Assembly (NCBI RefSeq): GCF_030816015.1
Contig: NZ_JAUSXN010000001.1
Location: 3,410,001 to 3,474,000, forward strand
Direction of reading: 5' to 3'
Length of the DNA: 64,000 nucleotides
From: Pedobacter sp. W3I1
Lineage (GTDB): Bacteria; Bacteroidota; Bacteroidia; Sphingobacteriales; Sphingobacteriaceae
Below, in pieces: positions 50,017-57,623 of this stretch (position 1 is its first letter; the number at the start of each line of letters is the position of its first letter). Made by a program: the position numbers and the translations under genes. The notes under the pieces were generated by a model that had not been told where the DNA came from, searched no databases, and saw only the letters and a list, made by a program, of their open reading frames with translations.

Positions 50017-50089
50017 GATTCCGTAGCTCAGCTGGTAGAGCATTACACTTTTAATGTAGTGGTCCTGGGTTCGAATCCCAGCGGGATCA
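50017..50089 (+). tRNA. tRNA-Lys(TTT)
   Basis: A complete 73-nt cloverleaf with discriminator base: acceptor GATTCCG / CGGGATC (one G-U pair), D-arm GCTC / GAGC, anticodon stem TTACA / TGTAG around loop CTTTTAA (anticodon TTT), T-arm CTGGG TTCGAAT CCCAG, discriminator A. CCA is not encoded. The 3' 17 nt (50074-50090) are repeated at 57607-57623, marking it as an integration site. Confidence 0.97.
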
Positions 50090-50090
50090 C
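50074..50090 (+). other. Attachment site, tRNA side (attL)
   Basis: AATCCCAGCGGGATCAC is the end of tRNA-Lys and is repeated without mismatch at 57607-57623. The bases outside differ at both ends, so this is the exact core of the direct repeat. Confidence 0.85.
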
Positions 50091-50094
50091 AAGA

Positions 50095-50121
50095 AACCTC
50101 ACAGAAATGTGAGGTTTTTTT
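50095..50121 (+). terminator. Terminator after tRNA-Lys
   Basis: A 9-bp perfect stem AACCTCACA / TGTGAGGTT with a GAAA loop is followed by TTTTT. It lies inside the island boundary, so it was probably brought in with the island and replaces the original terminator. Confidence 0.9.
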
Positions 50122-50506
50122 GTTTTATCCCCGCTAGGATTCGAATACGTCTTAAGACAATCTGCCAGACGAAGGTGAAAAATCCCTCCTCGTCATCTGG
50201 TTCCTTTCCTAGAAAATAAACAAGGTGATATTGTAAAAGGCTGGGTATTCTTTTTCAGGTGATGTAAAAAGCTTTTTTATAAAAAGATTATCCTCGAAAC
50301 AATTTTTCAGGCCGGTAAAACACCTATATCATAAGGATGTGGATTGAGGTTGAATGCTTCGTGGGGTTTGAAATATTTGTTGGGCATGGCTTTGAGTATT
50401 AGCCACCTAGTCCGGATGATTACTTTAAAATTATGTATTGCTGCTAACGGTTTCATATAATTGACTATTCGAGCACTCAATTTCTAAAATAGAGTCAATT
50501 TAACAA
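50122..50506. other. Left end of island, no gene; inverted tRNA-like fragment
   Basis: At 50128-50145 the sequence CCCCGCTAGGATTCGAA is, on the minus strand, TTCGAATCCTAGCGGGG, a one-mismatch relative of the T-arm and 3' end of the adjacent tRNA (TTCGAATCCCAGCGGGA). It is inverted relative to the tRNA. The rest of the 385 bp shows no convincing gene; one 26-codon frame (50307-50387, minus) looks like a possible gene scrap. Confidence 0.55.
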
Positions 50507-50902
50507 TTAAAAATAACTTTCTGCAAGAGAAGCCTGTAAACCTTCTTGTTTCATTAACTGAAGAACCAAGGCATGAGAATAATCTACATGCTCAACTTTT
50601 TCAGTTAAAGGGTCATGTGTAATAGACAGATTAAGATCGAAGTAGACGCTAGCTTTAAGTACTACCCCTAAGTGAGTGTTTGAGTCAAAAAGTTCCTCAA
50701 GACTAGGTGCCAAGGCTACTATATTTACAGATAGCCCATTAACATCTCTTTTTGGATCTGGTCGGAAGGCAATCCTGCTTAGCCGCATGCTGCCGTCTGG
50801 CATAATTTTCATCAAGTCATTTTGGTCACGATTCGGTGGGGGAAGTTTCACCCTCCTTAATATATCATCATCAGGCAGCACTGTATATTTTTCAATTGGC
50901 AT
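50507..50902 (-). CDS. Small island protein, unknown function (131 aa)
   Basis: I choose ATG at 50902, five bases after the stop of the upstream gene; longer versions would overlap it by up to 115 bp with a hydrophobic lead unlike a signal peptide. The protein is soluble, with MPIEKYTVLPDDDILRRVK, a central RIAFRPDPKRDVNGLSVNI stretch, and HVDYSHALVLQLMKQEG near the end (a conserved-looking histidine and aspartate cluster). I do not recognise a family. It is the last gene of the three-gene minus-strand island operon and so probably works with the DUF4209/HEPN-like protein, as toxin partner, sensor or antitoxin; this is inference from position. Confidence 0.7.
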   Translation of the reverse strand: MPIEKYTVLPDDDILRRVKLPPPNRDQNDLMKIMPDGSMRLSRIAFRPDPKRDVNGLSVNIVALAPSLEELFDSNTHLGVVLKASVYFDLNLSITHDPLTEKVEHVDYSHALVLQLMKQEGLQASLAESYF

Positions 50903-50906
50903 AGCT

Positions 50907-51392
50907 TCAACTTTGATTAACGAAATCATCCAGTAAATAAAGAGAGGATACTGATAACTCATGTTTTGTGACAGTATTATCAGAGCCAGTATAGCGCCTA
51001 ACCTCAATTGAAGTAGAATCAAGTATCTCTATATCTGCCTTAAGGTATTGTCCATCAAGTTCAATCTGTATACCATTGTCTTGATTAGAAAAAATATGGA
51101 TTGCAACATCTCTTTCAATGAAACGTTTGATAGAAAGCCATTTTAAAATTTCCTTCGTAACGTAGAAAGTAGAGCCTGAGATATGATATTCTGAGTCCCC
51201 CTGACCAATTTCTTTTGATGCGAAGTAATCTATTTTTGACAGCAGTTTAAAATATCTCACAGACACATTGCTCGATAGAGGTATAGACCGGGGTGTCTTG
51301 GTATAGGTTATTGCCGGAGGTGGTGTATCTGGGAATAACGTCCAGATATTTTTGAATTCTACGTCCGATTTTTTTTTTACAATTGTCGCCAT
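50907..51392 (-). CDS. Small island protein, unknown function (161 aa)
   Basis: The 161-aa soluble protein starts 3 bp after the stop of the DUF4209 gene and ends 5 bp before the next start, so all three are one transcript. The N-terminal 50 residues are proline-rich and probably flexible (LFPDTPPPAITYTKTPRS). Then come helical (RYFKLLSKIDYFASKEIG, FYVTKEILKWLSIKRFIERD) and strand-rich (GIQIELDGQYLKADIEILD) segments. No family, catalytic motif or membrane segment is recognisable. Tight packing with the HEPN-like gene suggests a cognate partner. Confidence 0.7.
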   Translation of the reverse strand: MATIVKKKSDVEFKNIWTLFPDTPPPAITYTKTPRSIPLSSNVSVRYFKLLSKIDYFASKEIGQGDSEYHISGSTFYVTKEILKWLSIKRFIERDVAIHIFSNQDNGIQIELDGQYLKADIEILDSTSIEVRRYTGSDNTVTKHELSVSSLYLLDDFVNQS

Positions 51393-51394
51393 AT

Positions 51395-53269
51395 TTAAAC
51401 CTGTGGAGTGTTTTCAAAATTATAATGCGCTAATTTGAGTATGATAGAAAGTACCAGAAAAGGTGATTCAATACCATATTCCACATTATCTACCAATCCG
51501 TGCGCTATCTTATTTCGGAGGTTCAGTCCCATCTTATCGCTCATTACGAATCTTATAAAAGTATAATTATCCTCTTCAAGATCGTCTTTTAAATCTCTTA
51601 ATAGGTCATCAAAAAGCTTTTCCATAACTATATTCTGTTCTCTTTTGTCTGGACGCTGCTTAAACGTAACGATCCCTAACTTGAGACAAAATTCTCTTAG
51701 AAGATACTCAATCTTTAATGTTAATGAATCGGTGCTGAGTATATAATCTGGCAGAACTTCTTCACCATTCAGCCATTTTTCAGTCTCTAAAAATAGATTT
51801 CTGATACCTGGTTCTATTAATTTCAAGTGGCTTATTGGTATGTCCTGTCCACTGATACGCCGGGCTGAAGATTCTCCTACCCAAGTTTTTGATAAGACCT
51901 CCAAGACCGCGTCTGCCGACAGCTTACCCGCCTTTATACTTTCGACGATTATCTGGATTAGTGTTTGCGAAGCAAGCTGAAAATGGTTGGAGTAATGTTG
52001 TAGAAAAGAAAACTCTTTTTTTTCATCTTCTAAAACATAGGACTCTATTGTGTTTCCAAACTTGTCCTGAACATATTTGGGAATCATTTCCATGAAAGGG
52101 GCTGTTCCTTCAAGTGCAACCGCCATACTCCTGATTGTTTGAACATCTGCAAGCATGGGTGTCTGCGTAATTACTGCAATAATATCAGTGGTTCCACCAT
52201 CAGTTATAAGCCTATTAATGTTTCCGGTAATCCGTTCGGTGGCTTCATCTGGAATTGCCATCGATATTTCAGAAAGACTTGTTTCAGTGCGTTGCTTCTG
52301 ATATTTTTGAGATAGTCGTTCATAGTCGGCATCACTTTTTATTTCCCGATAAATCCTTAATGCCTTATCGATAAATGTAACAGCGACATTATTATAATTT
52401 GGTGCGTTTTCGGCAAGCCTTTCATATTGATATGCAATTCTATTTTTCCAGTTATATCGCTCGTCCGTTATTTTATTAGCGAGGCGATCACTTTCACTGC
52501 ATATAGGAATAATCTCCCATGGATCGTTAGCCGCGATAGCATCAATAACCTGCTCATTTTTGTCGAGAATTACTTTTAGATCCAAACCCATCTGTAAAAT
52601 ATCCTTTGACCGTTCATTTATCAATCCTGTTGAGTCCACGATGAATCTCATAAGACCAAAATTGTTTATATTCCAGCTTAAATGTCTTGAATATATCTTA
52701 TTTAACATCTTATCATAAACACTCGCAATAGTAATTTCCGCCTTTCTCCTGGCAGATGCGATATTCAGTAGCTGCTTTATTGAAGCAAAATATTTGAGCA
52801 GGTTATAATTTTTTTCTTGTGAGTCGGATAAATCCCAGAGGATATCACATCTTTCTTGCAACACCTCCAACAGTTCTAATAAATCTTCATTCCTTTTAAG
52901 CCGCTTGGAATAGAAAAGAAAAAGCCCAAATTCTGTTTTAAGATATTTGTTTTGGGTTGATTTGTAGCGTTTTTCTATATTAGAATAATCTTCCTCCCGG
53001 AAATTATTACTATCAGGCCACTGTATTGGAATTTGATTGCCATCTTCATCAGTTCCTGTTCCTGTAATTTTTGGAGTCAAGCCTTCTTCTGCTGTTTTAA
53101 CAAACATCAATGCCTCTCGCTCTCTGTTGAGGAGCACCGCCTGATCCAGATCCGTCTTTTCTATCTCCTCAATAATCCCAATATATTGGGAATTTATTTC
53201 GATTTCAGATTCATCTCTTAAAAAATCAACTTTTTCTAGACTTTTATAAAAATCAGATATGACACTCAT
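51395..53269 (-). CDS. DUF4209-type protein with HEPN-like RNKIAH motif
   Basis: The 624-aa soluble protein is almost wholly helical, with long alpha-solenoid-like stretches in residues 1-430 (TEFGLFLFYSKRLKRNEDLLELLEVLQERC). The C-terminal 200 residues resemble DUF4209: SHLKLIEPGIRNLFLETEKWLNG, IEYLLREFCLKLGI and then MGLNLRNKIAHGLVDNVEYG. RNKIAH (R585 to H590) is an Rx4H motif as in HEPN ribonucleases, many of which are effectors of bacterial immunity. First gene of the minus-strand island operon, divergent from the GHKL-nuclease gene with 147 bp between starts. Nuclease activity is inferred; DUF4209 itself has no agreed function. Confidence 0.78.
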   Translation of the reverse strand: MSVISDFYKSLEKVDFLRDESEIEINSQYIGIIEEIEKTDLDQAVLLNREREALMFVKTAEEGLTPKITGTGTDEDGNQIPIQWPDSNNFREEDYSNIEKRYKSTQNKYLKTEFGLFLFYSKRLKRNEDLLELLEVLQERCDILWDLSDSQEKNYNLLKYFASIKQLLNIASARRKAEITIASVYDKMLNKIYSRHLSWNINNFGLMRFIVDSTGLINERSKDILQMGLDLKVILDKNEQVIDAIAANDPWEIIPICSESDRLANKITDERYNWKNRIAYQYERLAENAPNYNNVAVTFIDKALRIYREIKSDADYERLSQKYQKQRTETSLSEISMAIPDEATERITGNINRLITDGGTTDIIAVITQTPMLADVQTIRSMAVALEGTAPFMEMIPKYVQDKFGNTIESYVLEDEKKEFSFLQHYSNHFQLASQTLIQIIVESIKAGKLSADAVLEVLSKTWVGESSARRISGQDIPISHLKLIEPGIRNLFLETEKWLNGEEVLPDYILSTDSLTLKIEYLLREFCLKLGIVTFKQRPDKREQNIVMEKLFDDLLRDLKDDLEEDNYTFIRFVMSDKMGLNLRNKIAHGLVDNVEYGIESPFLVLSIILKLAHYNFENTPQV

Positions 53270-53372
53270 AAAGTTAAAGGTATCGATATTTTTGCAAATC
53301 TTCCTCTGTAATTTCTAACTAACTATTTTAAAACGGTGCTATCATTTATATTATTCCTTTAAAATAGCTAAT

Positions 53373-53399
53373 CAATTTACTAATTTATTTAGTAAATTG
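53373..53399. promoter_or_regulatory. Perfect 11-bp dyad in the divergent island promoter
   Basis: CAATTTACTAA and TTAGTAAATTG are exact complements separated by 5 nt. The dyad ends 17 bp before the ATG of the GHKL-nuclease gene and lies 104 bp upstream of the DUF4209 start, an ideal place for a repressor that silences one or both sides. The helix-turn-helix-like protein at 55603 is a candidate binder. Confidence 0.65.
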
Positions 53400-53416
53400 C
53401 ATGCCACATTTCTGCC

Positions 53417-55555
53417 ATGATGAATTCAACCAATAAATTAATAACTTCACGATCTGATGTTGATATGCCATTTTCGCATCATAATGTAAACAGAGAGGCT
53501 AAACACTTAAATACAATGAAGAATAAAGTAGGTGTAAACAACAACAGTATTGATTCTGCTGGAATAACCAAAGACTACATGGACGCTGTTTCAGAATTGA
53601 TCTGGAACGGTTTTGATGCAGGAGCTTCCAAAATCGACATCAAATTCAGCTCCAACGAGATAGACCATATTGATGAAATCAATATCGTTGATAACGGTAC
53701 AGGCATTTGCTTTCCAGACTTAAGTGAGACATTTGGCTCTTTTTTAGACTCTGTAAAACGAGGCTCTTTCCAACGATCTTCCTATGTGCGGGGAAAAAAA
53801 GGTAAGGGTCGGTTTTCCTTTATTGCCTTTGCAGGTACAGCTGTTTGGTCTACCGTTTTTTTAGATCCTGATTCCGAAAAGTGCTTGGCCTATGACGTAA
53901 CAGTACACGCTAATGATAAAGACCACTATAACGATGAGAATAAAAGAATAGCCGATACCGAAGAAACAGGCACGTGGCTAAAACTAACCAATCTCCACGG
54001 CGTGACGGCCTATTCTTTTCAATGTGATGATTTCATAAATTATTTAAAATATGAATTCGGCTGGTTTTTACTTCTCAATAGTAAGAAAGGATATACGCTG
54101 AGCATCAATGGAAGACCTTTGGAATATGATGACATATTGGGAGATCACGAAGTTTCCAACAGGATAATTACTGATATTAAAGGCGTAGACCACAATTTCA
54201 TTATTACTTACGTCAGATGGAATGAAAAAATCGGCGATAAGTTCTATTATTACTTTTTAAATGGAGAGAAAAAAGAGCTTTTTAAGCAACTCACTTCATT
54301 TAATAACAATGCTATTAATTTCTTTCATAGTATTTATATTGAGTCAGACTTTTTTAACGATTTCACTTTTTCCGACAATGAGGATTCGGAGCCAATTTTT
54401 GGGCAAACACAGAACAGCCCGGTATTTAAAATACTAGTTAAGGAACTGCAAAGAATAATCAATTTAAAGCAGAAAGAATTTGTTCGCATTAATGCTGCCG
54501 ATGAACTTATATCCCGGTATGAGAAAAATGGCGTTTTTCCAAAGTTTAAGAACAACAAATATGAACAGGAAAAGCGAAAAGACCTTGTAGAAGTTGTAAG
54601 GGAAATATATTGTATTCAACCCAAAATATTCAAGGGCTTAAACGAGACTCAGGAGAAAACAAGCATTGGGTTCATCAATCTCTTGTTGGACACAGATGAA
54701 CGTGAGAATATATTGTCTATTCTTGAAGGTATTGTGAGTATATCAAGTGAAGAACGTGAAAACCTTTCCATCCTTCTTAAAAAAACGAGCTTTGGGCATA
54801 TTACGAAAACTATAAATCTGATAGAGAGCAGGTTTAAGACAGTGGAGCTTTTAAAAACTCTAGTATTTGACCTCAAACATTTTTCTAACGAAAGGGATCA
54901 TATTCAACATGCAATTGCCGATAATTATTGGCTTTTTGGCGAGCAATTTCATTTAGTAACCGCCAATGAAGGTTTTGAAAAACTATTATCTAATTATCTA
55001 TATCTGGTTGACGGTTTATCCAAACCGTCTAAATCCAAGCTAAAAGATGAAGAAAAAAACCGCAGGCCAGATCTATTTATGTGTCGGCAAAGAAGTATTC
55101 CTGATCCTAACAATCACGATGATGATATAGAGGAAAATATTATGGTAGAACTTAAACGCCCTAACGTAACAATTGGAAAGGATCAACTTAGGCAGATCGA
55201 AGATTATATGGACTTCATTACACGGGAAGATCAGTTCAATTCACAAACCAGAAAATGGAAATTTTTCGTAGTCAGCAACAAGGTTGACGAATATATCGAA
55301 AAGCAATATGATGAATTTAAGGATAAGGGTAAACGATACCTAGTAAAGTCATGGGGAAACCTAGAGGTTTTTGCAATGACATGGGATGATGTATTCAGAA
55401 GCTTTACTATTAAACATAAATACTTGCTGGATAAACTTGATTTCGATCAGAAAGCAATCCAAGAAGAACTTAATATTAAGGGGATTAAATTGGATATTTC
55501 AGGCTCGCAAACCATTACTAATACTGTCAGGTTAAAAGCAGTACAAAACAATTGA
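53417..55555 (+). CDS. GHKL (MORC/HSP90-like) ATPase fused to PD-(D/E)xK nuclease
   Basis: The 712-aa protein joins two modules. Residues about 35-250 form a GHKL ATPase: N-box SELIWNGFDAGA (E60, N64, D67), G1 box VDNGTGI (92-97) and G2 lid RGKKGKGRFSF (126-135). A long helical middle (350-530) follows. Residues about 545-680 form a nuclease-like domain: RRPDLFM (D552), MVELKRP (E578, K580) and KDQLRQIEDYMDFI, a PD-(D/E)xK arrangement. ATP-driven clamping of DNA by MORC- or MutL-like GHKL proteins coupled to cleavage is a known theme in restriction-type defence. First of three plus-strand island genes. No methyltransferase is nearby. Confidence 0.88.
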   Translation: MMNSTNKLITSRSDVDMPFSHHNVNREAKHLNTMKNKVGVNNNSIDSAGITKDYMDAVSELIWNGFDAGASKIDIKFSSNEIDHIDEINIVDNGTGICFPDLSETFGSFLDSVKRGSFQRSSYVRGKKGKGRFSFIAFAGTAVWSTVFLDPDSEKCLAYDVTVHANDKDHYNDENKRIADTEETGTWLKLTNLHGVTAYSFQCDDFINYLKYEFGWFLLLNSKKGYTLSINGRPLEYDDILGDHEVSNRIITDIKGVDHNFIITYVRWNEKIGDKFYYYFLNGEKKELFKQLTSFNNNAINFFHSIYIESDFFNDFTFSDNEDSEPIFGQTQNSPVFKILVKELQRIINLKQKEFVRINAADELISRYEKNGVFPKFKNNKYEQEKRKDLVEVVREIYCIQPKIFKGLNETQEKTSIGFINLLLDTDERENILSILEGIVSISSEERENLSILLKKTSFGHITKTINLIESRFKTVELLKTLVFDLKHFSNERDHIQHAIADNYWLFGEQFHLVTANEGFEKLLSNYLYLVDGLSKPSKSKLKDEEKNRRPDLFMCRQRSIPDPNNHDDDIEENIMVELKRPNVTIGKDQLRQIEDYMDFITREDQFNSQTRKWKFFVVSNKVDEYIEKQYDEFKDKGKRYLVKSWGNLEVFAMTWDDVFRSFTIKHKYLLDKLDFDQKAIQEELNIKGIKLDISGSQTITNTVRLKAVQNN

Positions 55556-55602
55556 TATAGAAAATACCAAGACTAAATTATTTAAGCCCAATTAATATCT
55601 AA

Positions 55603-56250
55603 ATGGAACTTACAACGCCTCAAAAAGGAAAATGGAAAAGATTAAAAGCAGAAATAATTAAACGACCATTTATTGCTTATTCAATGGGGCTGAGCCCTAA
55701 AGATATAGAGCGCCTGTTTCTAGGCGGCTATCCAACACTAAAAGAATTAGATGAATTACTTGCTAAAATGCTGGAGGTGAGAGAAGCAAAGATTGAACGC
55801 CTAAGGCCGGTATTGACAAGAGTAGTGGGACATAGAGGATCTGCCCAGTTTGCAGCTAAAATTCATACAGACAGCATGAGCATTAAATATATTATTGACA
55901 AGAGATATAAGTCTGTTCCTTCTCATGACCTTATTTCTAGGATTGAAATTTATCTATATTATCTATGCGATTTTGAATTATCCCTGGAATACCAAACAGA
56001 GGCCAAATTATTCTTTTCAGGCAAAATTGAAGAATTATCATTAAAAGCCAGTAAGGTTTCTGCGAGTATTAACACGCTGCCAGGATATTTGGAAAAAATT
56101 AAGGTCTTTGATAAAAAAAATACATCCCAGCATTACGGTGATAAATACGCCATTGGTAGCTTAACCTATCATTTAGACAAGGCCATTGAAGACTTACAGG
56201 AAATGAGGTTGGAAGTAGAAATTATCCTCGAAAATTTGATTGATGTGTAA
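55603..56250 (+). CDS. Helix-turn-helix-like island protein (215 aa)
   Basis: The 215-aa soluble protein lies 47 bp after the GHKL-nuclease gene. Residues 15-55 (IIKRPFIAYSMGLSPKDIERLFLGGYPTLKELDELL) and 72-110 (RVVGHRGSAQFAAKIHTDSMSIKYIIDKR) both look like XRE-type helix-turn-helix units: helix, turn at small residues, recognition-like helix, then a linker to a further helix. The C-terminal 100 residues are helical with heptad-like leucines (LTYHLDKAIEDLQEMRLEVEIILENL), fit for dimerisation. It may be the regulator of the island, perhaps at the dyad 53373-53399, or a DNA-binding specificity subunit of the nuclease. No homologue is known to me. Confidence 0.68.
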   Translation: MELTTPQKGKWKRLKAEIIKRPFIAYSMGLSPKDIERLFLGGYPTLKELDELLAKMLEVREAKIERLRPVLTRVVGHRGSAQFAAKIHTDSMSIKYIIDKRYKSVPSHDLISRIEIYLYYLCDFELSLEYQTEAKLFFSGKIEELSLKASKVSASINTLPGYLEKIKVFDKKNTSQHYGDKYAIGSLTYHLDKAIEDLQEMRLEVEIILENLIDV

Positions 56251-56343
56251 GGTTTATCCATTAAACATTATGATCGTGTTGCTCTCTTTAACAATCGCTA
56301 CCTAAACCGAAATAACATTAATCTTATCTAAACCATTCTTAGT

Positions 56344-57390
56344 ATGTCTCCTAGAAAAAAGGTAACTAATCCAACAACACAATCTGAAAATGAAAACATC
56401 AGCTCAAATATTAATCCATTAGTATTTATTAGCCATGATACTAGAGATGCAGAACTGGCCGAAGAATTCAGCAATCTATTAAAAAGTGCGAGTGCTGGAG
56501 CACTAAAATCATTCAGATCATCAGATAAAAAAGGAACTCAAGGAATAGAATATGGTATGGAATGGTATCCAGCAATTATGGATAAGATTGATGAGGCATC
56601 TGATGTTGTTTGCTTGTTGACCCAACACAGCGTGGACAGGCCTTGGATTCTATATGAAGCTGGTGTGGCAAAAGGTAAACTTGATAAAAAGGTGATTGGA
56701 ATCGCACTAGGTATTCCTTTTAGTTCTGCCATAACTGGGCCATTTGCCCTATTTCAGAACAACAGTGGTGATTCGGAATCCATTACCAAGCTCGTACTTG
56801 AACTGGTCATGAAGGTTCCAGGATTAGATCCTGACAAAAGCCTAGTAAGGTTACTAGTAGATAAATTTGTCGAAAAGGTTAAGGAGATCACAGAAAAAAA
56901 GACAGAAGATGGTGGCGAAATTGAAAAAGTCGAAAGTGTAGATGAAAATTCTGTAGCCAAATTATTTGAAGAGGTTAAGATTATGTTTGATAGCCTCCCT
57001 TCAAGAATTGAAAATAGAATTGATCCCGATATGCGTAGAAAGAGAAGAAAATCACATCCTATGATGCTGGAAGAAATGCTTCATTTTGGATTTGAAGATG
57101 AAGAGCCGTCTATCGGATTTTTGATGTTAGTCAGTTTGTACAAGGACGATTTTCCCTGGTTTTATGAAATAGGTGTTGATACCTACCGAGGTTTAAAAGC
57201 GGTTAAAAGTAATGCTGAGCGTGAAAAAATCATCCGCGCTTTTGAACGTGCAACTGAAATGCTTTCTCATCCAATAATGAGAGAGTTCCATGGAGAATCG
57301 AAAGATAACTATTTCCTTTTCAAGGAAACAAGGCATATGTTCCATCGTTATTTGGAACGCTTTTATACAGACAAGAGATCAGAGAAATAA
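56344..57390 (+). CDS. TIR-domain protein, probable NAD-consuming defence effector
   Basis: The 348-aa protein has a TIR domain at residues 25-150: LVFISHDTRDAELAEEF (first strand and alpha-A), SDVVCLLTQHSVDRPWILYEAGVAKG (with candidate catalytic E105 in LYEAG) and KKVIGIALGIPF. Prokaryotic TIR domains of this type hydrolyse or cyclise NAD+ during phage infection, killing or signalling. A charged linker (KEITEKKTEDGGEIEKVE) leads to an unknown helical C-terminal domain (230-348, MMLEEMLHFGFEDEEPSIGFLML) that probably senses or oligomerises. It is 93 bp after the HTH-like gene and last in the plus-strand island group. Confidence 0.87.
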   Translation: MSPRKKVTNPTTQSENENISSNINPLVFISHDTRDAELAEEFSNLLKSASAGALKSFRSSDKKGTQGIEYGMEWYPAIMDKIDEASDVVCLLTQHSVDRPWILYEAGVAKGKLDKKVIGIALGIPFSSAITGPFALFQNNSGDSESITKLVLELVMKVPGLDPDKSLVRLLVDKFVEKVKEITEKKTEDGGEIEKVESVDENSVAKLFEEVKIMFDSLPSRIENRIDPDMRRKRRKSHPMMLEEMLHFGFEDEEPSIGFLMLVSLYKDDFPWFYEIGVDTYRGLKAVKSNAEREKIIRAFERATEMLSHPIMREFHGESKDNYFLFKETRHMFHRYLERFYTDKRSEK

Positions 57391-57606
57391 GCATTCATAA
57401 ACATACTAAGAGTAATTAAAATGTTGTTGGTTATGACAGAATTAAATATAGAAGATACTTTGATTTGCATTTTTTAGTATAAAATGCTATATTTATGTAT
57501 AGCATTTGCAGCTATTCTCTATTAAATAAAAGGTGCGTTATTCGGGGAGTTCGAATTTCAAAACCACTCTAAAATATTGCAAACGTTGATTTTTACACGA
57601 GGTGTA
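57391..57606. other. Right end of island with a perfect 10-bp inverted repeat
   Basis: AAATGCTATA (57482-57491) and TATAGCATTT (57498-57507) form a perfect inverted repeat with a 6-nt loop, possibly a terminator for the TIR gene or a recombinase binding site near the attachment core. Just before the distal attachment repeat, TTTACAC/GTGTAAA (57592-57608) is another small inverted repeat. AGTTCGAATTTC at 57549 faintly resembles a tRNA T-loop. No gene is seen. Confidence 0.5.
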
Positions 57607-57623
57607 AATCCCAGCGGGATCAC
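57607..57623 (+). other. Attachment site, distal side (attR)
   Basis: AATCCCAGCGGGATCAC, an exact copy of the tRNA-Lys 3' end, without any of the 5' tRNA sequence. It is followed by GAAGACTCAAGAACTTGCGTCTTTTTG, whose arms AAGACTCAAG / CTTGCGTCTT (one mismatch) and T-tract look like a tRNA terminator, written here in parts: stem arms then TTTTTG. Confidence 0.85.

Follow-up and report, generated by a model that had tools for sequence, protein, structure and literature searches.

A stand-alone GHKL ATPase-nuclease of the paraMORC3 kind in a tRNA-Lys cassette of Pedobacter, probably acting as an anti-phage enzyme

Proteins that combine a GHKL ATPase with a nuclease were described in 2008 by Iyer, Abhiman and Aravind, who defined the paraMORC families through their restriction-modification neighbourhoods (PMC2292703). 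In one of these families, paraMORC3, a GHKL and S5 module is followed by an RE-fold nuclease with an E-D-ExK motif, and stand-alone members were recorded at that time in both Proteobacteria and Bacteroidetes (PMC2292703). For some versions found outside of restriction-modification contexts, the same authors suggested a role in repair (PMC2292703). More recently, a 2025 study established that VcSduA of Vibrio cholerae, which contains GHKL and PD-(D/E)xK domains, blocks phages and that protection is abolished by either an ATPase (E27A) or a nuclease (K557A) substitution (PMC12137116). Its authors assigned VcSduA to Shedu type I-D, tied it to paraMORC3, and read its robust protection at every multiplicity tested as direct restriction with survival of the host (PMC12137116). 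Additionally, certain other Shedu proteins reportedly sense a DNA feature (PMC12409362). In the literature that we searched, VcSduA is the only GHKL-gated anti-phage nuclease to have been tested. A sequence-only reading of the locus described here had regarded stand-alone fusions of this type as little studied, a view that is outdated given the description of paraMORC3 in 2008 (PMC2292703) and the testing of VcSduA in 2025 (PMC12137116).

We analyzed a 64,000-nucleotide stretch of the Pedobacter sp. W3I1 genome (the window), whose list of open reading frames includes one that encodes 712 aa at 53417-55555 on the plus strand. The true gene probably starts at M34 of this frame (53516) and encodes a product of 679 aa, because the proteins of relatives L022 and L025 start at the equivalent position, in-frame stops occur shortly upstream of it in L021, L022 and L025, and residues 1-33 have no predicted structure in the full-length model (pLDDT about 35). 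Residues are numbered below as in the 712-aa frame unless M34 numbering is indicated, in which E60 becomes E27 and K580 becomes K547. The gene and its domains are as follows:

53417..53515, plus strand: upstream extension of the open reading frame, 33 codons, probably untranslated
53516..55555, plus strand: GHKL-S5-PD-(D/E)xK protein, probable true gene, 679 aa
53540..54016, plus strand: GHKL (HATPase_c_3) domain, residues about 42-200, with E60, N64, D67, D92, G94, G96 and G129-x-G131-R132 (Pfam; invariance; fold match to the TRAP1/MORC3 N-M region)
54089..54406, plus strand: S5-like transducer (middle) domain, residues about 225-330 (model; TRAP1/MORC3 alignment)
54419..54871, plus strand: all-helical linker, residues about 335-485 (model secondary structure)
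54890..55444, plus strand: PD-(D/E)xK nuclease domain, residues about 492-676, with Q593 as a further position (conservation, profile comparison, predicted fold)
54890-54892, 55070-55072, 55148-55150 and 55154-55156, plus strand: codons of E492, D552, E578 and K580, respectively

Pfam analysis of the 712-aa frame recovered HATPase_c_3 at residues 56-169 (1.6e-13) and sub-threshold matches to HSDR_N_2 and VRR_NUC around residues 545-603. Relatives were drawn from 395 genomes of the class and from a survey in which each species was represented by one genome. Together these provided 65 full-length proteins, most of them from Bacteroidota and the remainder from Bacillota, Cyanobacteriota, Chloroflexota and other groups. 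Distribution of the full-length protein is patchy, as it is present in about 10 of the 395 genomes of the class. In the resulting 66-member alignment, where identities are as low as 20%, the ATPase residues E60, N64, D67, D92, G94, G96, G129, G131 and R132 are invariant, as are E492, K580 and Q593 in the nuclease part, while 65 of the 66 sequences retain D552 and position 578 is E in 64 and D in two. Thus the ATPase boxes that had been noted in the sequence-only reading (E60/N64/D67, D92-N-G94-T-G96-I97 and G129-K-G131-R132) are confirmed as intact with invariant key residues, and the nuclease core of D552 and E578-x-K580 holds up in the homologue alignment that had been named as a check. Close pairs of the nuclease form exhibit whole-gene dN/dS values of 0.03-0.09, with values for the nuclease part that are lower still. 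The protein is a real, conserved enzyme that is probably active.

Structure prediction, the other check that had been named, places a PD-(D/E)xK nuclease fold at the C-terminus. Neither of the two outcomes that had been named as refuting was thus seen, and the presence of an ATPase and a nuclease in one chain is confirmed. The isolated C-terminal domain was modeled with a mean pLDDT of 87, and its closest structures are PD-(D/E)xK enzymes headed by NucS/EndoMS (Z 10.0 and 9.8 over 106-109 residues), with further matches to the BspD6I small subunit, FokI, SduA of E. coli (Z 8.8, rmsd 3.8, 147 residues aligned) and SduA of B. cereus. Since these matches are nearly tied, the model settles the predicted fold as PD-(D/E)xK and leaves the family to other evidence; an assignment to SduA by structural rank alone was rejected, because NucS, FokI and other enzymes of this fold score too closely to be told apart from it. 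Profile-profile comparison matched the nuclease to SduA over 145 columns (90.4%, E 1.4e-6), aligning the NxWxFG, D, ExK and Q positions of the two, and to HSDR_N_2 (89.1%, E 2.3e-6) over a shorter stretch of 66 columns. Reversed profiles used as a control yielded nothing, and a PDB sequence search with the nuclease profile gave a single insignificant match. The SduA_C Pfam model (DUF4263, PF14082) has no match in the Pedobacter protein or in nine relatives. An Mrr-type nuclease was also rejected, given the absence of an Mrr_cat Pfam match and an hhalign probability of 0.1%, although the latter carries little weight because the Mrr alignment was small and uneven. In the full-length model (mean pLDDT 80), residues 42-359, which span the GHKL and S5 module, match TRAP1, MORC3 and MutL, with the N-terminal and middle domains of TRAP1 and MORC3 scoring Z 15.7 and 15.2, respectively. 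The proposed kinship of the ATPase with MutL and MORC is therefore borne out by Pfam, by MutL model scores and by fold matches, and the protein is not a MutL equivalog, as it scored 26.8 bits with TIGR00585, for which the cutoff is 180.

The gene is located within a 7.5-kb cassette (50074-57623) that is bounded by two exact 17-bp copies of the 3' end of a tRNA-Lys gene and contains the following features in addition to the ATPase-nuclease gene:

50017..50090, plus strand: tRNA-Lys (TTT), the last 17 bases of which (50074-50090) form the left copy of the attachment-like repeat
50507-51022 and 50907-51392, minus strand: two small overlapping open reading frames without assigned function, downstream of the PDC-S39-like gene
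51395..53269, minus strand: DUF4209 protein related to candidate defence family PDC-S39, divergent from the ATPase-nuclease gene
55603..56250, plus strand: 215-aa protein without assigned function, 47 bp downstream of the ATPase-nuclease gene
56344..57390, plus strand: TIR-domain protein (TIR_2; PADLOC TIR-TM and ThsB-like)
57607..57623, plus strand: right copy of the 17-bp repeat AATCCCAGCGGGATCAC, an exact copy where 0 are expected by chance

Neither an integrase nor a ThsA-like gene was recognized in the cassette. In Pedobacter alluvionis (L020) a cassette that is 98% identical over 7.2 kb adjoins the same repeat, and also adjoins what reads as an apparent tyrosine integrase split into two open reading frames. 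Among eleven same-genus relatives (L144-L153 and L156), the DNA that is 3' of the NUDIX-adjacent tRNA-Lys is different in most of the genomes, which points to this tRNA gene as an insertion hotspot and to a cassette that has no recognized integrase of its own. In two of these genomes, L150 and L152, the first ~50-60 bases of the right flank of the window directly follow the tRNA, an arrangement that is suggestive of an empty site although the stretch is short. The cassette may be moved in trans.

None of the cassette genes recurs beside other relatives except in the P. alluvionis cassette, and the 215-aa and TIR genes were thus rejected as conserved operon partners, both being confined to that same cassette. 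The commonest cluster of neighbours is found at no more than 6 loci. Defence genes often adjoin the relatives but vary in kind, with immediate neighbours that include type I restriction subunits, GajA of Gabija and AbiEii of AbiE, each at a few loci. Some plasmid-borne relatives have restriction-modification genes nearby, namely a cytosine methyltransferase and an LlaMI-like nuclease in Psychrobacter, a DNA methyltransferase in Deinococcus and a type ISP enzyme in Phaeobacter, so a partner role is conceivable for part of the family. A distant relative annotated as hypothetical also occurs in Pasteurella phages Pmp14 and Pmp3 (L141, 3932-5890); in Pmp14 it sits among tail genes, and it is possibly a phage-borne defence gene.

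We consider it likely that the Pedobacter protein is of the paraMORC3 kind and works like VcSduA, as a stand-alone nuclease gated by ATP and directed against phages. This reading is based on intact and conserved ATPase and nuclease motifs, the predicted folds and low dN/dS; on VcSduA, which has the same architecture and requires E27 and K557, the equivalents of which are E27 and K547 (M34 numbering) in the Pedobacter protein; on the PDC-S39-like and TIR genes of the cassette and the frequent defence genes beside relatives; and on the lack of both a recurring partner gene and, by Pfam, any C5, N6/N4 or D12 methyltransferase, with one unlinked HsdM in the genome. What counts against it is the failure of the SduA_C Pfam model to detect the protein and nine relatives, as well as the restriction-modification genes beside some plasmid-borne relatives. 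By analogy with the superfamily, ATP binding would cause two chains to dimerize via the GHKL and S5 module, and dimerization would in turn close a clamp on the DNA and place the two C-terminal PD-(D/E)xK domains in position to cut. The scan-and-trap mode of action put forward in the sequence-only reading is likewise an analogy. Invading DNA might be known by a free end, its topology or a bound protein as opposed to missing methylation, which is the weakest step of the scheme. Phage DNA would then be cut and the host would survive, as has been proposed for VcSduA from infection curves. The gene itself appears from its flanking repeats to move within a defence cassette that inserts at the tRNA-Lys end.

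Many PD-(D/E)xK effectors act by abortive infection, and no methylation-based self mark is linked to this gene, both of which would suit an effector that once triggered cuts host and phage DNA alike. We nevertheless regard this as unlikely, as the protection by VcSduA at all multiplicities tested was read as direct restriction (PMC12137116). A somewhat poorer prospect is that the protein supplies the ATPase and nuclease of a restriction-modification system that has its methyltransferase gene at another locus, with self DNA spared by methylation. The manner in which paraMORC families were defined (PMC2292703), the methyltransferase or type ISP genes near the Psychrobacter, Deinococcus and Phaeobacter plasmid relatives, and the presence of one HsdM in the genome are all compatible with such a system. 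In opposition to this, Pfam detects no methyltransferase within the cassette and, in the genome, no member of the three further families searched for (C5, N6/N4 and D12), the sole HsdM is about 0.92 Mb distant, and no restriction-modification neighbour is conserved among the relatives whose neighbourhoods were compared. The earlier statement that no methyltransferase is linked to the gene is upheld. The absence of a cassette methyltransferase and of three families from the genome, together with a single distant HsdM, makes self-marking by methylation unlikely. Sensing of a DNA feature is favoured, though unproved, as the means by which the anti-phage nuclease would tell self from non-self; Shedu proteins that have other N-terminal domains are known to sense DNA ends, a property that may not transfer to the GHKL form. 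As no methyltransferase is linked to the gene and almost none was found elsewhere in the genome, the locus provides a clean case for asking how a GHKL-gated nuclease spares host DNA. A repair nuclease akin to MutL or NucS that acts on host mismatches or damage is very improbable, for despite the MutL-like ATPase, the top (albeit tied) structural scores of the NucS/EndoMS nuclease domains and the repair role proposed for some versions (PMC2292703), the gene is patchily distributed, is on a mobile cassette among defence genes, and encodes a protein with the architecture of anti-phage VcSduA (PMC12137116).

The family also includes nineteen shorter proteins, 403-455 aa in length, in which the chain terminates ahead of the nuclease (L002, L007, L057, L060-L062, L064, L067, L072, L074, L079, L081, L085, L088, L089, L093, L096, L098 and L099). 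All ten of the ATPase residues checked are kept in each of the nineteen, and close pairs have dN/dS values of 0.02-0.11 that indicate strong purifying selection. A tblastn search with 66 nuclease domains found no nuclease domain in the surrounding DNA examined near these short forms. They occur in several branches of the tree such that at least five changes between forms are needed, and the simpler reading of their distribution is that the nuclease was lost and not gained. One of them, L002, is encoded in the Pedobacter sp. W3I1 genome itself (2978485-2979750) between genes that read as antiporter-like and SGNH-hydrolase-like. Nuclease-free relatives from Chitinophaga and Pedobacter have common chromosomal neighbours, and several, L002 included, are in stable chromosomal surroundings. 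We tentatively suggest, at a little under even chances, that the GHKL-S5 module has a second, nuclease-free life, in which it perhaps clamps DNA in an ATP-driven manner or regulates the nuclease form. These recurrent short relatives represent natural controls for the ATPase acting alone.

Comparison with known systems places the Pedobacter protein closest to paraMORC3, with which it shares a GHKL domain with all motifs, an S5 domain and a C-terminal RE-fold nuclease with E-D-ExK. Like the stand-alone paraMORC3 subset it has no conserved neighbours, and no difference was observed across the features tested, the 2008 members being compared by their described features; location in a tRNA-Lys cassette is a trait of the Pedobacter member. 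VcSduA is likewise a single protein with an N-terminal GHKL ATPase and a C-terminal PD-(D/E)xK nuclease. Using the published VcSduA positions and M34 numbering, the catalytic Glu is at 27 in both proteins and the ExK lysine is K547 in Pedobacter versus K557 in VcSduA, which separates the two catalytic residues by 520 and 530 residues, respectively. SduA of E. coli and B. cereus (8ps4/8ps5 and 8ti8/8ti9) have a similar nuclease fold and the same E, D, ExK, Q order but, unlike the Pedobacter protein, contain no GHKL ATPase, and with a Z of 8.8 the SduA fold match ranks level with those of FokI and other PD-(D/E)xK enzymes, about 1 below NucS. With MutL and MORC ATPases the protein has in common the GHKL and S5 module, while a PD-(D/E)xK nuclease replaces the MutL endonuclease domain at its C-terminus. 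Because the Shedu type I-D signature, DUF4263, is matched by profile comparison only, where HSDR_N_2 scores nearly as high, and not by the Pfam model, our claim is limited to the protein working like VcSduA. Most likely, the Pedobacter gene does not represent a new kind of system but is a good further example of one that has been described before, namely paraMORC3 with VcSduA among its members. With it, the GHKL-gated anti-phage nucleases gain a well-conserved branch in Bacteroidota.
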